Source of the DNA: Deltaproteobacteria bacterium
GTDB lineage: Bacteria > Desulfobacterota > Dissulfuribacteria > Dissulfuribacterales > QOAL01
Direction: 5' to 3'
Assembly: GCA_027028245.1 (NCBI GenBank)
Contig: JALVJO010000078.1
Location: forward strand, 1-59,353
DNA: 59,353 nucleotides
Below the pieces are notes generated by a model. It saw only the letters and a list, made by a program, of their open reading frames with translations. It had not been told where the DNA came from and searched no databases. Shown here in pieces: positions 4,824-13,411 of this stretch. Positions within the stretch are counted from its first letter, which is position 1; the number at the start of each line of letters is the position of its first letter. The position numbers and the translations under genes were made by a program.

Positions 4824-6095
4824 GTGGCTATTAAGGCAATAAGAGGATTCAAGGATATACTCCCCGAGGAGGCATGTTCCAGGGTCAGACTGGAAGAAAC
4901 GGCAAGGCAGGTCTTTGCCCTTTGCGGGATTGATGAGATCAGGACCCCTGTGCTTGAAAAGACAGAGGTCTTTAAGAGGGGAATAGGCGAACACACCGAC
5001 ATAGTTGAAAAGGAGATGTACACCTTTCAGGATCGCAACGGTGAATCCCTCACCCTGCGGCCCGAGGCAACTGCCGGTATAATAAGGGCGGTTGTGGAAC
5101 ACAAGCTCCACGGCACCGCACCTCTTTTGAAGCTTTTCACCATGGGGCCCATGTTCAGGCATGAAAGGCCGCAGAAGGGCAGGCTTCGGCAGTTTCACCA
5201 GGTGAACGTGGAATACCTGGGTTCAAGTGAGCCTCCTGCAGATGCGGAAATCATCTGGCTTGCATGGGAGATCGTAACAAGGCTTGCCGGCAGTGAAGAC
5301 CTTCTGGTGGAGATCAATTCTCTCGGGTGTGAAAAGTGCAGGCCTGTTCACAGGAAAGAGCTGATGCTCTACCTGGAAAACAACCAGCAGGATCTGTGCG
5401 AAGACTGCAGGCGCAGGATGAAGGTCAACCCCCTGAGGATCTTTGACTGCAAGAATGAGGAATGCAGGCGGAATCTCATACTGGCACCTGTCATGAAGCA
5501 TTACCTGTGCCCTGACTGCGCCAGTCATCTGGGCATGGTGCTGGACATACTTGAAGCATATGGAGTTCCCTTTGTCCAGAATCCCTACCTGGTCAGGGGG
5601 CTGGATTATTATGTCAGGACAACCTTTGAAATCACATCCCGGAAGCTCGGTGCCCAGAGTACCGTAGCTGCAGGCGGCCGCTATGACGGGCTTGTAAAGC
5701 TCATGGGAGGCCCTGATATACCAGGGGTGGGAATGGCAGTAGGGGTGGAAAGACTGCTTCTTCTCATGGGTGAAGCTGAATCCAGAAAGGGTATAGATCT
5801 TTTTATTGCTGCACTGGGCAGGGAGCCAAGAGACGAGGCATATTACTGGATCGGCTATCTCAGGCGGCATGGTATCAGCGTGGAGTTTTCATTTGCAGAC
5901 AAGAGCCTCAAGGCCCAGATGAAACAGGCGGACAAGTCGGGAGCCCGGTACTGCCTGATTTTCGGCGAAAATGAATTGGACAGCGAAAGGGCAATCCTGA
6001 GGGATATGAAAACAAAGGAACAGGAAGAAATAGATCTTGATGATCTTCCTGAAGCCCTGGTAGACAGGATTTCGAACCAAAGCGCAGGAGAATAA
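4824..6095 (+). CDS. hisS: Histidyl-tRNA synthetase
   Basis: Charges tRNA-His with histidine in the cytoplasm. The 423 residues are normal for bacterial class II HisRS. Recognisable elements are the N-terminal AIRGFKDILPEE, motif 1 around IRTPVLEKTEVFKRGIGE, the TLRPEATAGIIRA block, motif 2 FRHERPQKGRLRQFHQ, the histidine-specific GLDYYVRTTFEI and motif 3 GVGMAVGVERLLLL, followed by the anticodon-binding domain. Translation starts at GTG 4824. The preceding GAGGA (4812-4816) is well spaced and family N-termini begin at this point. A Cys-rich insert (CEKCRPVHRK, CEDCRRR, CKNEECRR, CPDC) between the catalytic halves could bind zinc. aspS follows 4 bases later. Confidence 0.97.
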   Translation: MAIKAIRGFKDILPEEACSRVRLEETARQVFALCGIDEIRTPVLEKTEVFKRGIGEHTDIVEKEMYTFQDRNGESLTLRPEATAGIIRAVVEHKLHGTAPLLKLFTMGPMFRHERPQKGRLRQFHQVNVEYLGSSEPPADAEIIWLAWEIVTRLAGSEDLLVEINSLGCEKCRPVHRKELMLYLENNQQDLCEDCRRRMKVNPLRIFDCKNEECRRNLILAPVMKHYLCPDCASHLGMVLDILEAYGVPFVQNPYLVRGLDYYVRTTFEITSRKLGAQSTVAAGGRYDGLVKLMGGPDIPGVGMAVGVERLLLLMGEAESRKGIDLFIAALGREPRDEAYYWIGYLRRHGISVEFSFADKSLKAQMKQADKSGARYCLIFGENELDSERAILRDMKTKEQEEIDLDDLPEALVDRISNQSAGE

Positions 6096-6099
6096 GAAA

Positions 6100-7899
6100 A
6101 TGGAACCAATGGGAGAGCTTAAACGCACCCATGATTGTTACAGCATCACTGAGGAAAGCCTTGAGACAGAAGTGGTGCTCATGGGGTGGGTGCACAGGCG
6201 GCGTGACCACGGTGGCCTGATATTCGTGGATTTGAGAGACAGAAAAGGGATTACCCAGGTGGTATTTGCCCCTGAAGTAGATGAAAAATCGCATCAGAAG
6301 GCACATTCCCTCAGGAGCGAGTATGTTATCGCCGTCAGGGGCAGGGTGAGAAGGCGGCCCGAAGGAATGGAGAACCCTAAAATAAAGACGGGCATGGTAG
6401 AAGTGGCCTGCCTGGAGCTTAGGATACTCAATACCTCCAAGACACCTCCCTTTCCACTGGAAGAAGAAAAGGAGGTCTCGGAAAGCGTCCGCCTCAAATA
6501 CCGTTATATTGATCTCAGAAAGCCGCACATGGTTGAAAATCTTACCCTGAGGCACTCGGTATGCCAGGCCATGAGGGAATTTTTGAACCAGCATGATTTT
6601 CTCGAGATAGAAACCCCTATGCTCACAAGAAGCACCCCGGAGGGTGCCAGGGACTACCTTGTGCCAAGCCGCGTGAATCCAGGCAGGTTTTATGCCCTGC
6701 CGCAGTCCCCGCAGCTTTTCAAGCAGATACTCATGATCTCCGGCATGGAAAGATATTACCAGATAGTCCGCTGTTTCCGGGACGAGGACTTGCGGGCTGA
6801 CAGGCAGCCGGAGTTCACCCAGCTGGATATGGAGCTTTCATTTGTCAACGAGGAAGGGATCATGGACCTCATAGAGGGTCTTATCACCCATGTATTTTCA
6901 AGAACCCTCGGGATAGAGCTGAACACCCCTTTCCCAAGACTCACCTATCAGGAGGCCATGGACAGGTTCGGTACCGACAGACCCGATACAAGGTTTGGTC
7001 TTGAACTTGTGGATATCACGGATATAGCTGCCGGCTGCGGGCTTAAGGTCTTTAACACCATAGTTGAAAAAGGCGGAGTGGTGCGCGCCGTAAATGCCAA
7101 GGGCATGGCAGATCTTTCCAGGAAGGACCTGGATGTACTTACAGAATTCGCCCAGTCCTTTGGTGCAAAGGGCCTTGCATGGGTCAAGATAAAGGAAGAC
7201 CGGAGCTGGCAGTCCCCCATAGCGAAATTTTTCAAACCAGAAGAGCAGGAAGCTGTAATGACAAGGCTGTCGGCAGCCCCTGGAGACATACTCTTTTTCG
7301 GGGCAGACAGCAGAAGTACCGTGGACCGCGTGCTGGGCGAACTGAGGCTTGAACTTGCCAGGCGGAGGAACCTGATACCTGAAAAGGATTTTAATTTTGT
7401 CTGGGTAACCCATTTTCCCCTGCTGGAATTTGACGAGGATGAGGGACGTTTCAAGGCCCTTCACCATCCCTTTACAGCCCCGAGCAGGGAAGACTTGGAC
7501 CTCCTGGAGGAAGATCCCGCACGGGTTCGTTCCAGGGCCTACGATCTTGTATTAAACGGCATAGAAATAGGCGGTGGCAGCATTCGTATCCACCAGGAGG
7601 CAGTTCAAAAAAGGGTTTTCAATGCACTCAACATAGGCGATGAAGAGGCAGAGGAAAAATTCGGTTTCCTTCTCGAGGCCTTGACCCTTGGTGCGCCTCC
7701 TCACGGCGGTATAGCCTTCGGCCTGGACAGGCTTGTAATGCTCATGGCCGGGCGGGAGACAATAAGGGATGTCATCGCATTTCCAAAGACCCAGAAGGCC
7801 CAGTGCCTCATGACCAGGGCACCTGCCCATGTCAGCATGGCCCAGCTTGCAGAGCTCTATCTGCGGCCTGACTGGAAACAGGAGGAAGGGCAGACCTGA
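6100..7899 (+). CDS. aspS: Aspartyl-tRNA synthetase (bacterial type)
   Basis: Charges tRNA-Asp, and probably also tRNA-Asn if the enzyme is non-discriminating, which sequence alone does not settle. The 599 residues carry an N-terminal OB anticodon-binding fold (VVLMGWVHRRRDHGGLIFVDLRDR), class II motif 1 around FLEIETPMLTRSTPEGARDYL, motif 2 (YYQIVRCFRDEDLRADRQPEFTQLD), the bacterial GAD insertion domain (about residues 290-410) and motif 3 (GIAFGLDRLVMLM). The start is the ATG 4 bases after the hisS stop, consistent with coupling. Synteny hisS-aspS is common in Desulfobacterota. Confidence 0.97.
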   Translation: MEPMGELKRTHDCYSITEESLETEVVLMGWVHRRRDHGGLIFVDLRDRKGITQVVFAPEVDEKSHQKAHSLRSEYVIAVRGRVRRRPEGMENPKIKTGMVEVACLELRILNTSKTPPFPLEEEKEVSESVRLKYRYIDLRKPHMVENLTLRHSVCQAMREFLNQHDFLEIETPMLTRSTPEGARDYLVPSRVNPGRFYALPQSPQLFKQILMISGMERYYQIVRCFRDEDLRADRQPEFTQLDMELSFVNEEGIMDLIEGLITHVFSRTLGIELNTPFPRLTYQEAMDRFGTDRPDTRFGLELVDITDIAAGCGLKVFNTIVEKGGVVRAVNAKGMADLSRKDLDVLTEFAQSFGAKGLAWVKIKEDRSWQSPIAKFFKPEEQEAVMTRLSAAPGDILFFGADSRSTVDRVLGELRLELARRRNLIPEKDFNFVWVTHFPLLEFDEDEGRFKALHHPFTAPSREDLDLLEEDPARVRSRAYDLVLNGIEIGGGSIRIHQEAVQKRVFNALNIGDEEAEEKFGFLLEALTLGAPPHGGIAFGLDRLVMLMAGRETIRDVIAFPKTQKAQCLMTRAPAHVSMAQLAELYLRPDWKQEEGQT

Positions 7900-7931
7900 T
7901 TATTAACGATCGGATTTAACAGGAGAAAAAT

Positions 7932-9752
7932 ATGATAAAATGGAATCCCGAAAAAGGATTACTGAGCTACACCAAGGAATTTCCCCTTGAAGACGTAAAG
8001 GAGCCTGATCTCATGCGGGATCTTTTCCCCTACCATGAGGTCTGCAGAATAGCCTTTGACAACAAGTACCTGGTTCCGCAGCCCTGCAGGGAAATGCTCA
8101 TTACAGATACCACCTTCAGGGACGGGCAGCAGGCCAGGCCCCCTTATACAGTGGAACAGATAAGCAGGATTTTTGATTTTCTGCACAGAATGAGCGGGCC
8201 AAAGGGAATAATACGCCAGTCGGAATTCTTTCTCTATACCGACAAGGATAAGCAGGCAGTGGAGGCCTGCAAGGAAAAGGGATACCGTTTTCCAGAGGTG
8301 ACAGGATGGATCCGGGCCAAGAAGGACGATCTCAAGCTGGTAAAGGACATGGAGCTGGAGGAGACAGGCATCCTGACCTCTGCTTCTGACTATCATATTT
8401 TCCTGAAGCTTAAGAAGACCAGGAAGGAGGCCATGGAAGGCTATCTTTCCATAGTGCGTGCTGCACTGGATCTGGGTATCAGGCCCAGATGTCACTTCGA
8501 AGACATCACCAGGGCGGACATACATGGTTTCTGTGTGCCCTTTGCCATAGAACTCATGAAGCTTCGGGAGGAAACAGGCATCGATATCAAGATCAGGATG
8601 TGCGATACCATGGGATATGGCATCACCTATCCTGGTGCAGCACTGCCAAGGAGTGTGCCCAAGGTGGTAAGGGCCATGATAGACGATGCAGGAGTGCCGG
8701 GAGAACTCCTTGAATGGCACGGCCATAATGATTTTCACAAGGTTGTCATCAATGCCACCACTGCCTGGCTATATGGCTGCGGTGTCATAAACGGCACCCT
8801 CCTGGGCTTTGGAGAAAGGACCGGGAACACTCCGCTCGAGGCCCTTTTGATCGAGCGCATCGCCCTTAGAGGTGAGACAGACGGTATCGATACCAGGGTC
8901 ATCACGGAAATGGCAGAATATTTTGTTAGGGAACTCAAGGTCAGCATCCCCTCAAATTATCCACTTGTGGGAGAGGATTTCAATGCCACAAGCGCAGGAG
9001 TCCATGCCGACGGACTTTTGAAGAACGAGGAGATCTACAATATCTTTGATACCGATGCCATACTTGGAAGACCCGTGTCTGTTATCATTTCTGACACATC
9101 TGGCACGGCAGGCGTTGCCCACTGGATCAATACCCATCTCGGCCTCAAGGGTGCTCAGCAGGTCGATAAGAGACACCCTGGAATAGTAAAGATCTACAAG
9201 CAGATCATGAAGCAGTACGAGGAGGGCAGGGTTACATCCATGTCCAATACGGAGATGGAAAGCCTTGCCAGAAAGTATCTTCCCGAACTTTTTACATCTG
9301 ATTTTGACAGGCTCAAAAAGCGTGCCCATGGTCTGGCATTCCATCTGGTGGAAGATCTGGTAGAGACTCCGGAGATTCGTTCCATGGAACCGGAGCAAAT
9401 GGAGCCACTTCTCAAGAAGGTACTTGAGGAAAATCCCTTTATCCAGTTTCTGTACGTGGTGAATTCCGAGGGGGAGAAAATCACCCACAATATCACCCAC
9501 ATTGAAGACAGAAGCAAGTATGCTTCCTTTCAGCTTGACAGCGATTTTTCTGGAAGGCCCTGGTTTATCGCCCCTATAAAAGACGGCAAGATCCACGTAA
9601 CTGACTTCTATACTTCCAGGATAACCAACGCCCTGTGCATTACCGTTTCAGGCCCCATCAGGAACGAAAACGAGGAAATTGTAGGTGTCCTTGGAATTGA
9701 TATACGTTTTGAAGACCTTGCAAAGATGGATGGTGAAAACAACAACGAATAA
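7932..9752 (+). CDS. Re-citrate/homocitrate-synthase-like enzyme with C-terminal PAS/Cache-like domain
   Basis: A 606-residue member of the DRE-TIM acyltransferase family (isopropylmalate, homocitrate and Re-citrate synthases), which condense acetyl-CoA with a 2-oxoacid. Family signatures are DTTFRDGQQ (about 59-67), the metal-binding HGHND, GFGERTGNTPLE and SAGVHADGLLKNEEIYN. The long N-terminal extension before DTTFRDG and the SDTSGTAGVAHWIN segment distinguish it from LeuA. Residues from about 495 to the end (NPFIQFLYVVNSEGEK ... RPWFIAPIKDGKIHVTDFYT ... EEIVGVLGIDIRFEDLAK) resemble a PAS/Cache-type sensor fold, without membrane segments. I infer an intracellular ligand- or redox-responsive citrate or homocitrate synthase. 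Re-citrate synthase is plausible in an anaerobe but the substrate is not provable here. It lies 32 bases after aspS, with ribosome site AGGAG ahead of the ATG, and a hairpin terminator follows. Confidence 0.75.
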   Translation: MIKWNPEKGLLSYTKEFPLEDVKEPDLMRDLFPYHEVCRIAFDNKYLVPQPCREMLITDTTFRDGQQARPPYTVEQISRIFDFLHRMSGPKGIIRQSEFFLYTDKDKQAVEACKEKGYRFPEVTGWIRAKKDDLKLVKDMELEETGILTSASDYHIFLKLKKTRKEAMEGYLSIVRAALDLGIRPRCHFEDITRADIHGFCVPFAIELMKLREETGIDIKIRMCDTMGYGITYPGAALPRSVPKVVRAMIDDAGVPGELLEWHGHNDFHKVVINATTAWLYGCGVINGTLLGFGERTGNTPLEALLIERIALRGETDGIDTRVITEMAEYFVRELKVSIPSNYPLVGEDFNATSAGVHADGLLKNEEIYNIFDTDAILGRPVSVIISDTSGTAGVAHWINTHLGLKGAQQVDKRHPGIVKIYKQIMKQYEEGRVTSMSNTEMESLARKYLPELFTSDFDRLKKRAHGLAFHLVEDLVETPEIRSMEPEQMEPLLKKVLEENPFIQFLYVVNSEGEKITHNITHIEDRSKYASFQLDSDFSGRPWFIAPIKDGKIHVTDFYTSRITNALCITVSGPIRNENEEIVGVLGIDIRFEDLAKMDGENNNE

Positions 9753-9895: not shown

Positions 9896-11578
9896 TTGAA
9901 AAGACCCCTATCAAGGAATTCCTTCAAAGAAACAGGTGTCATAAGAAAGCGCTGGAAAAACCGGATAACCGTCGGCCTGGTTTTCCCGGATACTTATGGC
10001 ACAGGTATGTCGAATCTTGGCTTCCAGAGGGTTTACGAGCTCCTAAATGCCCATGACCTGATTGTTGCAGAACGTTTTTTTCTTCCGGCTTTTGGCCAGT
10101 CAGATGTCTCTATACGTTCTGTTGAATCAAGCAGGGGCCTTGGAGAATTTGACCTGATCCTTTTTTCCATCAGTTTTGAATACAGCTATCTGAACATTCC
10201 CCTCATCCTGGCAGGAGGCAGAATCCCCGTCTTCACCGAAGATCGTAAGACTTCCTGTCCGCTGGTACTGGCAGGGGGAATCGCCTGCCAGATAAATCCT
10301 GAACCTGCAGCCCCTTTCATAGATGCCTTTCTTCTGGGTGATTTTGAGGCAATATGCCCTGATTTTGTAGAATTCTTAGAAGATCATGAGTTATCAGGAA
10401 AAAAGGGCAGGCTTCTTGAAAGCTTGTCCTTGCAGGTACCTGGAGTTTATGTGCCGTCATTTTACATGCCGCTTTCTGGCAGGATATCCCAGGAAGGCCC
10501 ATACGGACAGGTTCTGCCTGCAATCCAGGAAAAGCCCCCTCAAATACTTCCACACACGGTAGTTCTTTCGGAAAAAGCCTCATTTCCAGATACCTTTCTC
10601 ATGGAGGTAGGCAGGGGGTGCGGAAGGGGCTGCCGATTCTGTGCAGCAGGTTATGTTTACCGCCCGCCCAGGCCCTGGCCAGCGGAAAACATAAAAAATA
10701 CCCTGGCCCTGGCCGAAGAAACAAAAAAGATCGGCCTCGTAGGCCTGGAATTCATGGAGACAGCAGGACTGCAGGGACTGATATCGAGTCTCCTGCAAAG
10801 CCGGTTCAAGCTCGGTTTTTCATCTCTTCGGGCAGATGCTGTTACCAGGGATTTTGCAAGTCTTCTGGCAGCCTCGGGTTCAAAGACTGCAACCATAGCC
10901 CCGGAGGCAGGTTCAGAGACCCTGAGAAGAAGGATAAACAAGAATCTGACCCGGGAGCAGATCCTTGAATGCTGCCGTCACCTCGTAACTGCCGGGATCA
11001 GAAACCTCAAGCTCTATTTCATGATAGGTCTGCCCTTTGAGGACGATGAAGACGTGGAAGACATCGTGTGTCTCAGCAAGGAAATTCTCCAAATGTTTAC
11101 AGGCGCAGGACGGAAAAGGGGCAACCTGGGGCACCTTACTGTTTCGGTTTCTACCTTTGTTCCAAAGGCATGGACACCTTTTCAGTGGGCTGCCTTTGCG
11201 GGTAAGAATCACCTGGGCAGAAGGCGGGATATCCTCGAAAAGGGGCTGCGGGGTGTTCCAAACGTAAGGCTCAGGCTTGACTCGCCGGAAAAGGCCTTTA
11301 TCCAGGCAATTTTGAGCCGTGGAGACAGGGATCTGGCCCAGGATCTCATTATTCAAAGATTAAAAGGCATGGGTACCCGTAAATTGGTCAAGAAAATATC
11401 GTCAAAGGCCGAAAAATATCTCAGGGAGCGATCTTTTGATGAGCCTTTTCCCTGGGAAATTTTGAATCATAGGGTTAAGAAAGCCTTTTTGTATTCCCAA
11501 TGGCAAAAGGCGCAGCAGGGCAGACAATCCCCTTTCTGCGAGCTGCTTAAATGCAGGAGATGCGGTGCCTGCAAGTAA
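9896..11578 (+). CDS. B12-binding-domain radical SAM protein (TIGR03960-like)
   Basis: A 560-residue protein with an N-terminal Rossmann-like cobalamin-binding-type region (about 20-160: VGLVFPDTYGTGMSNLGFQR ... LILFSISFEYSYLN ... LVLAGGIACQINPEP). A radical SAM core follows, with the 4Fe-4S motif C242-x3-C246-x2-C249 (CGRGCRFC). The C-terminus ends in a small Cys cluster (C548, C553, C556, C559), which may hold a second metal site. The overall plan matches the TIGR03960 family of unknown reaction, whose members are often fused or adjacent to a DUF2344 protein; none is present here. Translation appears to start at TTG 9896 with no strong ribosome site. The fapA-like gene starts 12 bases downstream. 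Confidence 0.8.
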   Translation: MKRPLSRNSFKETGVIRKRWKNRITVGLVFPDTYGTGMSNLGFQRVYELLNAHDLIVAERFFLPAFGQSDVSIRSVESSRGLGEFDLILFSISFEYSYLNIPLILAGGRIPVFTEDRKTSCPLVLAGGIACQINPEPAAPFIDAFLLGDFEAICPDFVEFLEDHELSGKKGRLLESLSLQVPGVYVPSFYMPLSGRISQEGPYGQVLPAIQEKPPQILPHTVVLSEKASFPDTFLMEVGRGCGRGCRFCAAGYVYRPPRPWPAENIKNTLALAEETKKIGLVGLEFMETAGLQGLISSLLQSRFKLGFSSLRADAVTRDFASLLAASGSKTATIAPEAGSETLRRRINKNLTREQILECCRHLVTAGIRNLKLYFMIGLPFEDDEDVEDIVCLSKEILQMFTGAGRKRGNLGHLTVSVSTFVPKAWTPFQWAAFAGKNHLGRRRDILEKGLRGVPNVRLRLDSPEKAFIQAILSRGDRDLAQDLIIQRLKGMGTRKLVKKISSKAEKYLRERSFDEPFPWEILNHRVKKAFLYSQWQKAQQGRQSPFCELLKCRRCGACK

Positions 11579-11590
11579 CGGAGCCTTCAC

Positions 11591-13411
11591 ATGCCTCAGG
11601 AAAATTTTGATGATTCACCGGTGCTGGATGATCTGGATTCCTACACTGGTATTGACGACATCCATGATGAAGAATTTGAAGATGATGAAGAACTAGAAGA
11701 GGCATTTTCAGAATCAACTCCGCCTGAAAAGATTGCAAGATGGATCCTGGAGTCAGGGGAATCACTTAAATACGGTTCGGACATCCTGGCCGTCACCATG
11801 GATCTTCCGCCCATAAACAGGGTCAATCCTGAAAATTTTCTGGCTGCCCTCCAGGCAGTCTTCAAGGAATTTTCCATAAATCAGCTGCCGGAAGACGTCC
11901 GGGAAAATATACTTAAAAGGGAATTCGATAATTTTGAGTTTATTGCATCAGCCAGGGAAAAGCATCTTCAGCCCAGGCAGGTGGAGGTCAATACATTTCC
12001 GGAGATATCCACGCTGACAATCAGGGGAGTTGAGCCATCAGACGGCAATGACGGCTCCATAGAAGTCTTTTTTGATTTCCACGTTCATCCCGGCAAGTAC
12101 CTGCCGGACGGCAGCATTGATTTTACCGAGATCAACCGGTTTCCGCAGGTGGGAGAGGACTACTGTGTATTCAGGATCTACCAGCCTACCCCAGGCTCAG
12201 AAGGCACAGATGCATATGGTCTGCGTATTTCTCCAAAGGCAGGTGTGCCTTTTCCAATCAAGCCGGGAGAAGGTTTCAGGGTGGAAAACGGATACGATGA
12301 AGAAAGAAAGGAACACTACCAGGATTTTTTCTGTAAAAAGGCAGGCATAGTAGTATGTGAATTCGAGGGTCCTCCTGACCCAATGAACATACGTGCCATC
12401 TCAATCAGAAATGAGATCGTGGTGAAAGACATAGATTTCACCACCGGCAGTCTTAAGGGACAGGCTGGAGAGCTTAGGTGTAAGGCCAACGTCATGGTGG
12501 AGGGGGACATCAGGGGGCATTTTTCAGTGGTGATAGACGGGGCACTTAATGTCAAGGGGGCAGTTGAGGGTGCCACCGTTGATGCTACAGGCCCGGTCGT
12601 TGCCTCTTTTGTCAGGAATTTTCTCCGCTCAGGAAGCAATATGGAGATCGGCTCTGCCAGAAATGCCACGCTCATTGCCAATGAAACTGCCACCATCAAG
12701 AGAGAGCTTGCAGAATGCCAGATCAAGGCCCCGCGTGTGATTTTTGACCCCCATGGCAGCCCAGAGATCATGGTGGGCCGTACCAGTGTTGAGTCAGATG
12801 CAGTTACCGGCGGACCCTTGAACGTCAGGAACATCTTTGAGATGGAGATTGGAAAAAGGCTCTTTGAAACCCGTACTCTGCTGGAAAGACAGTATGCAGA
12901 GCTTGAAGAAGAAACTACCCGTACTGCGGCAAACCTCAGGGACAGGGGTGCCGTTATGGGACAGAAGCTGAAGCTTGCATCCTCCATCCTTTCTGACGAG
13001 CAGAAAAAATTCATCCCCGTCCTGAAACAGTTTGCCACCATGATTCTCCTGGGAAAGATTCCTTTAGGCAAGATCAAGGAGAGGGTAAAAAACTTTGAAA
13101 AAAACTACGGAGCAGATTTCAGGGGCATAGTAAAGCACCTGAAACTCATGGTGGATATACAGGAAAAACTGACCCAGACATTGGAAAAAAAGGAGCAGCT
13201 GATTAATCAAAAGGAACAGGTGGAGGCAGCAATAAACGGGCTGGTTGTGGATATAAGCGGAAGGCTTGCGTCGGCAGGGCAGGTGATAATCAGGTGTGAA
13301 GGCAGGGAAAATAGATTAAGCCTCAAAACTGCTAAGACAGAAACATTTCACCTTATCATGAAATATGACCCGAGAAACGGCCCCTATTTTGTCAACAAGG
13401 AGCAGGAATGA
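11591..13411 (+). CDS. FapA (DUF342) family protein
   Basis: A 606-residue cytoplasmic protein of the flagellar-assembly-protein-A/DUF342 family. The N-terminal 50 residues are unusually acidic (DDLDSYTGIDDIHDEEFEDDEELEEAF). The centre (about 270-400) has the right-handed beta-helix repeats typical of the family (ELRCKANVMVEGDIRGHFSVVIDG ... GAVEGATVDATGPVVAS ... NATLIANETATIKRELAECQIKAP). The C-terminal third is predicted coiled coil (LLERQYAELEEETTRTAANL and KEQLINQKEQVEAA). DUF342 proteins have been linked to surface motility and polysaccharide regulation in some bacteria, but there is no general function. It lies 12 bases after the radical SAM gene, so probably the same transcript. Confidence 0.85.
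   Translation: MPQENFDDSPVLDDLDSYTGIDDIHDEEFEDDEELEEAFSESTPPEKIARWILESGESLKYGSDILAVTMDLPPINRVNPENFLAALQAVFKEFSINQLPEDVRENILKREFDNFEFIASAREKHLQPRQVEVNTFPEISTLTIRGVEPSDGNDGSIEVFFDFHVHPGKYLPDGSIDFTEINRFPQVGEDYCVFRIYQPTPGSEGTDAYGLRISPKAGVPFPIKPGEGFRVENGYDEERKEHYQDFFCKKAGIVVCEFEGPPDPMNIRAISIRNEIVVKDIDFTTGSLKGQAGELRCKANVMVEGDIRGHFSVVIDGALNVKGAVEGATVDATGPVVASFVRNFLRSGSNMEIGSARNATLIANETATIKRELAECQIKAPRVIFDPHGSPEIMVGRTSVESDAVTGGPLNVRNIFEMEIGKRLFETRTLLERQYAELEEETTRTAANLRDRGAVMGQKLKLASSILSDEQKKFIPVLKQFATMILLGKIPLGKIKERVKNFEKNYGADFRGIVKHLKLMVDIQEKLTQTLEKKEQLINQKEQVEAAINGLVVDISGRLASAGQVIIRCEGRENRLSLKTAKTETFHLIMKYDPRNGPYFVNKEQE

Follow-up and report, generated by a model that had tools for sequence, protein, structure and literature searches.

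The gene at positions 7932–9752 of the window (the whole stretch of DNA that was analysed, 59,353 nucleotides) encodes a 606-residue protein, which is best explained, and is probably to be understood, as a Re-citrate synthase carrying a cytosolic, effector-binding Cache domain as its C-terminal tail. The features of the gene and its product are collected in Table 1. The catalytic core bears the R-D and H-x-H active-site motifs, with R63, D64, H263 and H265 invariant, and in the full-length model (pLDDT 90.1, pTM 0.75) it is joined to the tail by the three helices of the linker. The original prediction had placed a citrate- or homocitrate-synthase-like enzyme here, with a sensory fold of about 110 residues at its C-terminus in place of the LeuA domain. 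Both parts were borne out: the first by the HMGL/DRE-TIM core recognized by Pfam and Foldseek, and the second by Pfam, AlphaFold and Foldseek.

Table 1. Positions in the window of the citrate synthase-like gene, its neighbours and the features of its product
Feature	Coordinates	Strand	Basis or remark
hisS	4824..6095	+	Context only; retained in 24 loci of the set
aspS, upstream neighbour	6100..7899	+	Context only; retained next to the gene in 36 loci of the set
AGGAG, Shine–Dalgarno-like, 6 bases 5′ of the ATG	7921..7925	+	Read in the sequence
CDS, Re-citrate-synthase type with C-terminal Cache domain	7932..9752	+	606 aa, ATG start
HMGL-like (DRE-TIM) catalytic domain, residues 57–329	8100..8918	+	Pfam PF00682, E 1.5e-28; full-length model; Foldseek
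RDGQQ motif, residues 63–67	8118..8132	+	Invariant in the family; catalytic by analogy with LeuA and homocitrate synthase
H263-x-H265, expected metal ligands	8718..8726	+	Invariant; role by analogy with LeuA and homocitrate synthase
HCS_D2-like subdomain, weak, residues 347–405	8970..9146	+	Pfam PF22617, E 0.001, below cut-off
Helical linker, residues 416–476 (helices 416–430, 439–449, 457–476)	9177..9359	+	Full-length model
Cache domain (MCP-like_PDC_1), residues 491–597	9402..9722	+	Pfam, profile against the PDB, AlphaFold, Foldseek
R542-P-W544-F545, aligned with PctA R126-x-W128-Y129	9555..9566	+	Tail profile alignment
Y560, aligned with PctA Y144	9609..9611	+	Tail profile alignment
D590, aligned with PctA D173	9699..9701	+	Tail profile alignment; 78/78 family members

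The tail is almost certainly a true Cache domain. It matches MCP-like_PDC_1 with an E-value of 3.2e-18 (66.6 bits, compared with a gathering cut-off of 27), dCache_1 just under the cut-off (43.7 bits for a cut-off of 45) and YkuI_C weakly (E 0.14). A profile of the tail compared with the PDB retrieved Tlp3 (5.6e-11), KinD (4e-10) and PctA (6e-7). The AlphaFold model of the tail, computed from a 76-row alignment (mean pLDDT 87.4, pTM 0.83), is a single Cache module of about 110 residues with the typical long first helix and β-sheet. In a Foldseek search of the PDB the best matches to this model were all Cache-type sensor domains (E-values as low as 1.7e-8, probability 1.00), with KinD, Tlp3 with isoleucine, Mlp24, PctA/B/C, CtaA, DctB and CitA among them. 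The boundary of 490–606 first proposed for the tail is thus correct, and structure prediction with a fold search returned a Cache fold, not a LeuA-type dimerization domain. LeuA_dimer (PF08502) is absent from the 606-residue protein in the same Pfam search that finds it in its two paralogues from this genome, LeuA and CimA, at 124 and 102 bits. A sub-threshold LeuA dimer domain in the tail can be ruled out, since the paralogues score above 100 bits and the tail is modelled as a Cache domain. The protein has no membrane segment (peak 19-residue hydropathy of 1.03), and on this basis the enzyme is predicted to be cytosolic.

The gene lies directly downstream of aspS, and its proximity to aspS and hisS may simply be inherited gene order. 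On its downstream side, a radical SAM gene (9896–11578) adjoins a gene for a FapA-type protein of 606 residues (flagellar assembly protein A/DUF342 β-solenoid; 11591–13411); seven other loci keep the radical SAM gene, and five keep the FapA-type gene.

Far from being peculiar to the source cell, the tail is old and widespread: the enzyme normally carries it in this phylum and in several others, and some ten groups outside the phylum have it. It is present in one piece on 142 of the 147 homologues of the phylum survey, the other five being three tail-less proteins (G013, G031 and G241), one fragment and one protein split over two contigs. Records named Nitrospirae, Spirochaetes, Lentisphaerae, Elusimicrobia, Omnitrophota, Fibrobacteres, Erginobacter, Termititenax and UBP15 have it as well. 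Among distant members the tail retains about 30% identity to the query. None of the near-full-length homologues in 199 genomes of Bacillota, the phylum of a tail-less record, carries it. The state of the tail changes at least four times on the tree, and a tail-less row branches first, which leaves the direction of gain or loss undecided. A search for the source of the tail among the other proteins of close relatives gave one weak further match alone in 31 genomes. Two artefacts were considered and discarded. Mis-assembly, or a membrane-receptor fragment, as the origin of the fusion is ruled out by the occurrence of the same fusion throughout the phylum and in other phyla. An internal stop or recoding is likewise ruled out for homologues with single-stop reports: in the three that were read, the frame ends normally after the tail and it is the terminal stop that had been read through.

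The amino-acid motif of dCache_1 sensors comprises, in PctA numbering, Y121, R126, W128, Y129, Y144 and D173. In PctA, R126 is the carboxylate ligand, W128 and Y144 make contacts, Y129 is structural and D173 is a key contact (PMC10104139); the motif is also described in PMC9901441. Five of these positions have counterparts in the tail (Table 1), and their conservation in the family is high: R542 in 72/78 members, W544 in 78/78, F545 in 76/78, Y560 in 64/76 and D590 in 78/78, with all five kept in 62 of 76 members. The complete motif is not present in the 606-residue protein, in which S537 stands at the position of Y121; this tyrosine is lost in most members too. All six positions, counting F for Y129, are found in nine of 76 members, of the Desulfovibrio and Desulfonatronospira types. 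The two tandem extramembrane Cache modules of dCache_1 sensors are also missing from the protein, which has a single module and no membrane segment. Across the tails no variation is seen at W544, S562, L568 and D590, and very little at R542, F545 and T571. As a control, we took seven receptor Cache domains of the same Pfam family and phylum: they keep the W, Y and D, but never the R. R542 is therefore the telling residue for an amino or carboxylic acid ligand. The same control weakens D590 as proof of amine binding, since the aspartate also occurs in the seven receptor domains; D590 is compatible with an amine ligand without proving it.

For the ligand, the allostery and its sign, we infer the following scheme. 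The Re-face citrate synthase would join oxaloacetate and acetyl-CoA, and aconitase and isocitrate dehydrogenase would then lead to 2-oxoglutarate and on to glutamate. The Cache module, attached via the helical linker, occupies the usual C-terminal place of the LeuA feedback domain. A small metabolite would be held in its cytosolic pocket, by R542 at the carboxylate and, if it is an amino acid, by D590 at the amino group. The ligand would change the Cache module, and this change would pass through the linker helices to the oligomeric catalytic core; such signalling from tail to core is proposed by analogy with leucine acting on the LeuA domain. Since the pathway supplies glutamate, the simplest effector would be glutamate itself or a related amino acid, by end-product inhibition. 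We consider it likely that the tail is an effector-binding regulatory domain. That its ligand is an amino acid is quite possible, and we hold this view with some reserve. More tentative is the full proposal, namely that an entire lineage of Re-citrate synthases, found in Desulfobacterota and some ten further groups, is under feedback control by an amino acid, with glutamate as the simplest candidate, exerted through a cytosolic Cache domain of the kind that bacteria otherwise carry on the outer side of chemoreceptors. The tail-less relatives in Bacillota do without the Cache tail, which counts against the scheme.

A plain carboxylate could also be the ligand, as the structure of KinD, which matches the fold best, contains pyruvate. 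The tail would then bind a carboxylic acid that lacks an amino group (for example pyruvate, 2-oxoglutarate, citrate or succinate) and report central-carbon status, not amino-acid supply; DctB and CitA match the fold too, and R542 would hold any carboxylate. We find this rather unlikely in view of the strict retention of D590, the spacing of R-x-W-F, Y and D, which follows that of PctA, and the whole amino-acid motif kept in Desulfovibrionaceae members. It is unlikely that the tail is an assembly element alone, which would hold the tetramer and sense nothing, the LeuA domain being one that also dimerizes. The tail does take the place of the LeuA dimer domain, tail-less homologues function in other phyla, and PAS and Cache domains often dimerize. 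However, the most conserved residues of the tail, the four invariant ones, are ligand-pocket positions, and a pure scaffold would have no need to retain R542.

As for the core, we regard its assignment as a Re-citrate synthase as highly likely, and the predicted product of the gene is very probably the cell's only citrate synthase, of the rare Re type of anaerobes. The original prediction had raised this as a possibility, and it is now supported by the genome of the source cell, by the distribution of the two enzyme types and by the gene neighbours in relatives. Si-citrate synthase (PF00285) was not found in the source genome (G000, 96% complete) by a search that finds PF00285 in 13 of 14 control genomes. 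Aconitase, NADP-isocitrate dehydrogenase, LeuA and CimA are present there, all above their equivalog cut-offs, and LeuA sits in a leu cluster (contig C195). Among 296 genomes of the phylum, 147 have the Re-type gene and 166 have PF00285, a family that also covers 2-methylcitrate synthase and parts of ATP-citrate lyase: both occur in 30 genomes, the Re type only in 117, the Si type only in 136 and neither in 13. This near-exclusion is strong (Fisher p 6e-38, with shared descent ignored). A genome of the same order without the Re-type gene (G113) has the Si-type enzyme. In relatives, an aconitase-family gene lies near the gene in 13 loci and an isocitrate-dehydrogenase-family gene in ten; the neighbouring dehydrogenase in locus L028 passes one NADP-isocitrate dehydrogenase equivalog cut-off and scores far higher as an isocitrate than as a homoisocitrate dehydrogenase. 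The absence of the Si enzyme, the complementarity and these neighbours make a strong case for a citrate synthase, and hence for the Re type, as the predicted function. The 30 genomes with both enzyme types weaken this reading for some genomes, in which the function could differ.

The tree compared the family with LeuA, CimA and NifV and contains no named, assayed Re-citrate synthase sequence. The branch that separates all 59 family members in it, with or without the tail, from the three outgroups is 3.66 changes per site long and has 100% support (a quick search, with long outgroup branches), so that the core does not fall with LeuA or CimA; the tail-less Bacillota members have 55–62% identity. 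That the core is instead a homocitrate synthase or another 2-oxoacid condensing enzyme is highly improbable: homocitrate synthase is its nearest relative both among solved structures (6ktq, by Foldseek) and by sequence, and it passes none of the NCBIfam family cut-offs of the LeuA/CimA/NifV type (best 134 bits, compared with 413–950 for full-length synthase models), but against this stand a genome with aconitase and isocitrate dehydrogenase and no other citrate synthase, the complementarity with the Si enzyme, the isocitrate dehydrogenase score of the neighbour in relatives and the position of NifV, LeuA and CimA outside the family.

Several side observations concern the distribution of these enzymes. 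The 13 genomes of the phylum without either enzyme are well assembled (G008, G020, G039, G045 and G060 among them) and may use a third type of citrate synthase or import glutamate; a renewed search of G008 and G039 gave weak LeuA-like matches only, and G020 holds a 63-residue piece with 49% identity that is perhaps a gene fragment. In the Desulfovibrio-type loci L058, L059, L063 and L074 the Re-citrate synthase gene is followed by one of the aconitase family, and in L058 and L063 an isocitrate dehydrogenase gene is present too. The aconitase-family gene of L059, the one scanned, matches the poorly characterized PRK11413 'hydratase' model (1213 bits), not the standard aconitase models, and this type of hydratase may be the working aconitase of such loci. 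The Bacillota genomes G441, G465 and G489 contain two to three copies or pieces of the tail-less enzyme, which suggests paralogues with a different role.

The Re-citrate synthases of Syntrophus aciditrophicus and Clostridium kluyveri belong to the same superfamily as the 606-residue protein and catalyse the reaction predicted for it. Li et al. are said to have described the enzyme of C. kluyveri in 2007, and the tagged subunit of the S. aciditrophicus enzyme studied by Kim et al. in 2013 is reportedly of 72.9 kDa. Tail-bearing members of the Syntrophales type have 71.2–72.1 kDa without a tag, and on this comparison the assayed Syntrophus enzyme probably carries the tail. The clostridial type differs in having no tail, as do all of the Bacillota homologues found. 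LeuA and CimA share with our protein the order of a DRE-TIM domain followed by a C-terminal regulatory domain, but theirs is PF08502, of another fold, strong in both paralogues and absent here. With the amino-acid sensors of the dCache_1 class (PctA, PctB, Tlp3 and Mlp24, and animal α2δ-1) the tail has in common the Cache fold and the order R-x-W-[YF]...Y...D. It differs from them in that it is one Cache module and not two, is predicted to be cytosolic, has no membrane anchor and is attached to a metabolic enzyme, and in that the first tyrosine of the motif is missing from most Re-citrate synthase tails.

The function of related enzymes at a greater distance is documented (PMC12016533), in a paper that does not use the word 'domain'. 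Cache families are principally extracellular and have signalling outputs, with the exception of YkuI_C and Diacid_rec (2016 census; PMC4822843). These two families (the latter from CdaR) are principally intracellular according to the census; the tail is predicted to be so too, but their outputs are signalling or transcription, whereas that of the tail would be a central-carbon enzyme, and MCP-like_PDC_1 is a far better match to the tail. Searches of the literature for Cache together with citrate synthase or isopropylmalate gave nothing relevant, and those combining Cache with 'metabolic enzyme' gave signalling or unrelated papers, judged by title; no account of a central-carbon enzyme with a Cache domain came to light in the literature searched. 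Re-citrate synthase itself is thus known, and a Cache domain on it seems to be undescribed.

Citrate synthase is a main control point for the flow of carbon into glutamate, and we know of no settled account of how the Re-type enzyme is controlled in strict anaerobes. A conserved sensor pocket on this enzyme would offer a directly testable answer in cultured sulfate reducers such as Desulfovibrio and in syntrophs. The finding also matters for annotation, as many genomes list the gene as an isopropylmalate or homocitrate synthase. If the feedback proposal is true, it would be the first case in which a sensor of the Cache class serves a central-carbon enzyme as its allosteric domain, and it would extend Cache domains from signalling outputs to the allosteric control of metabolic enzymes.
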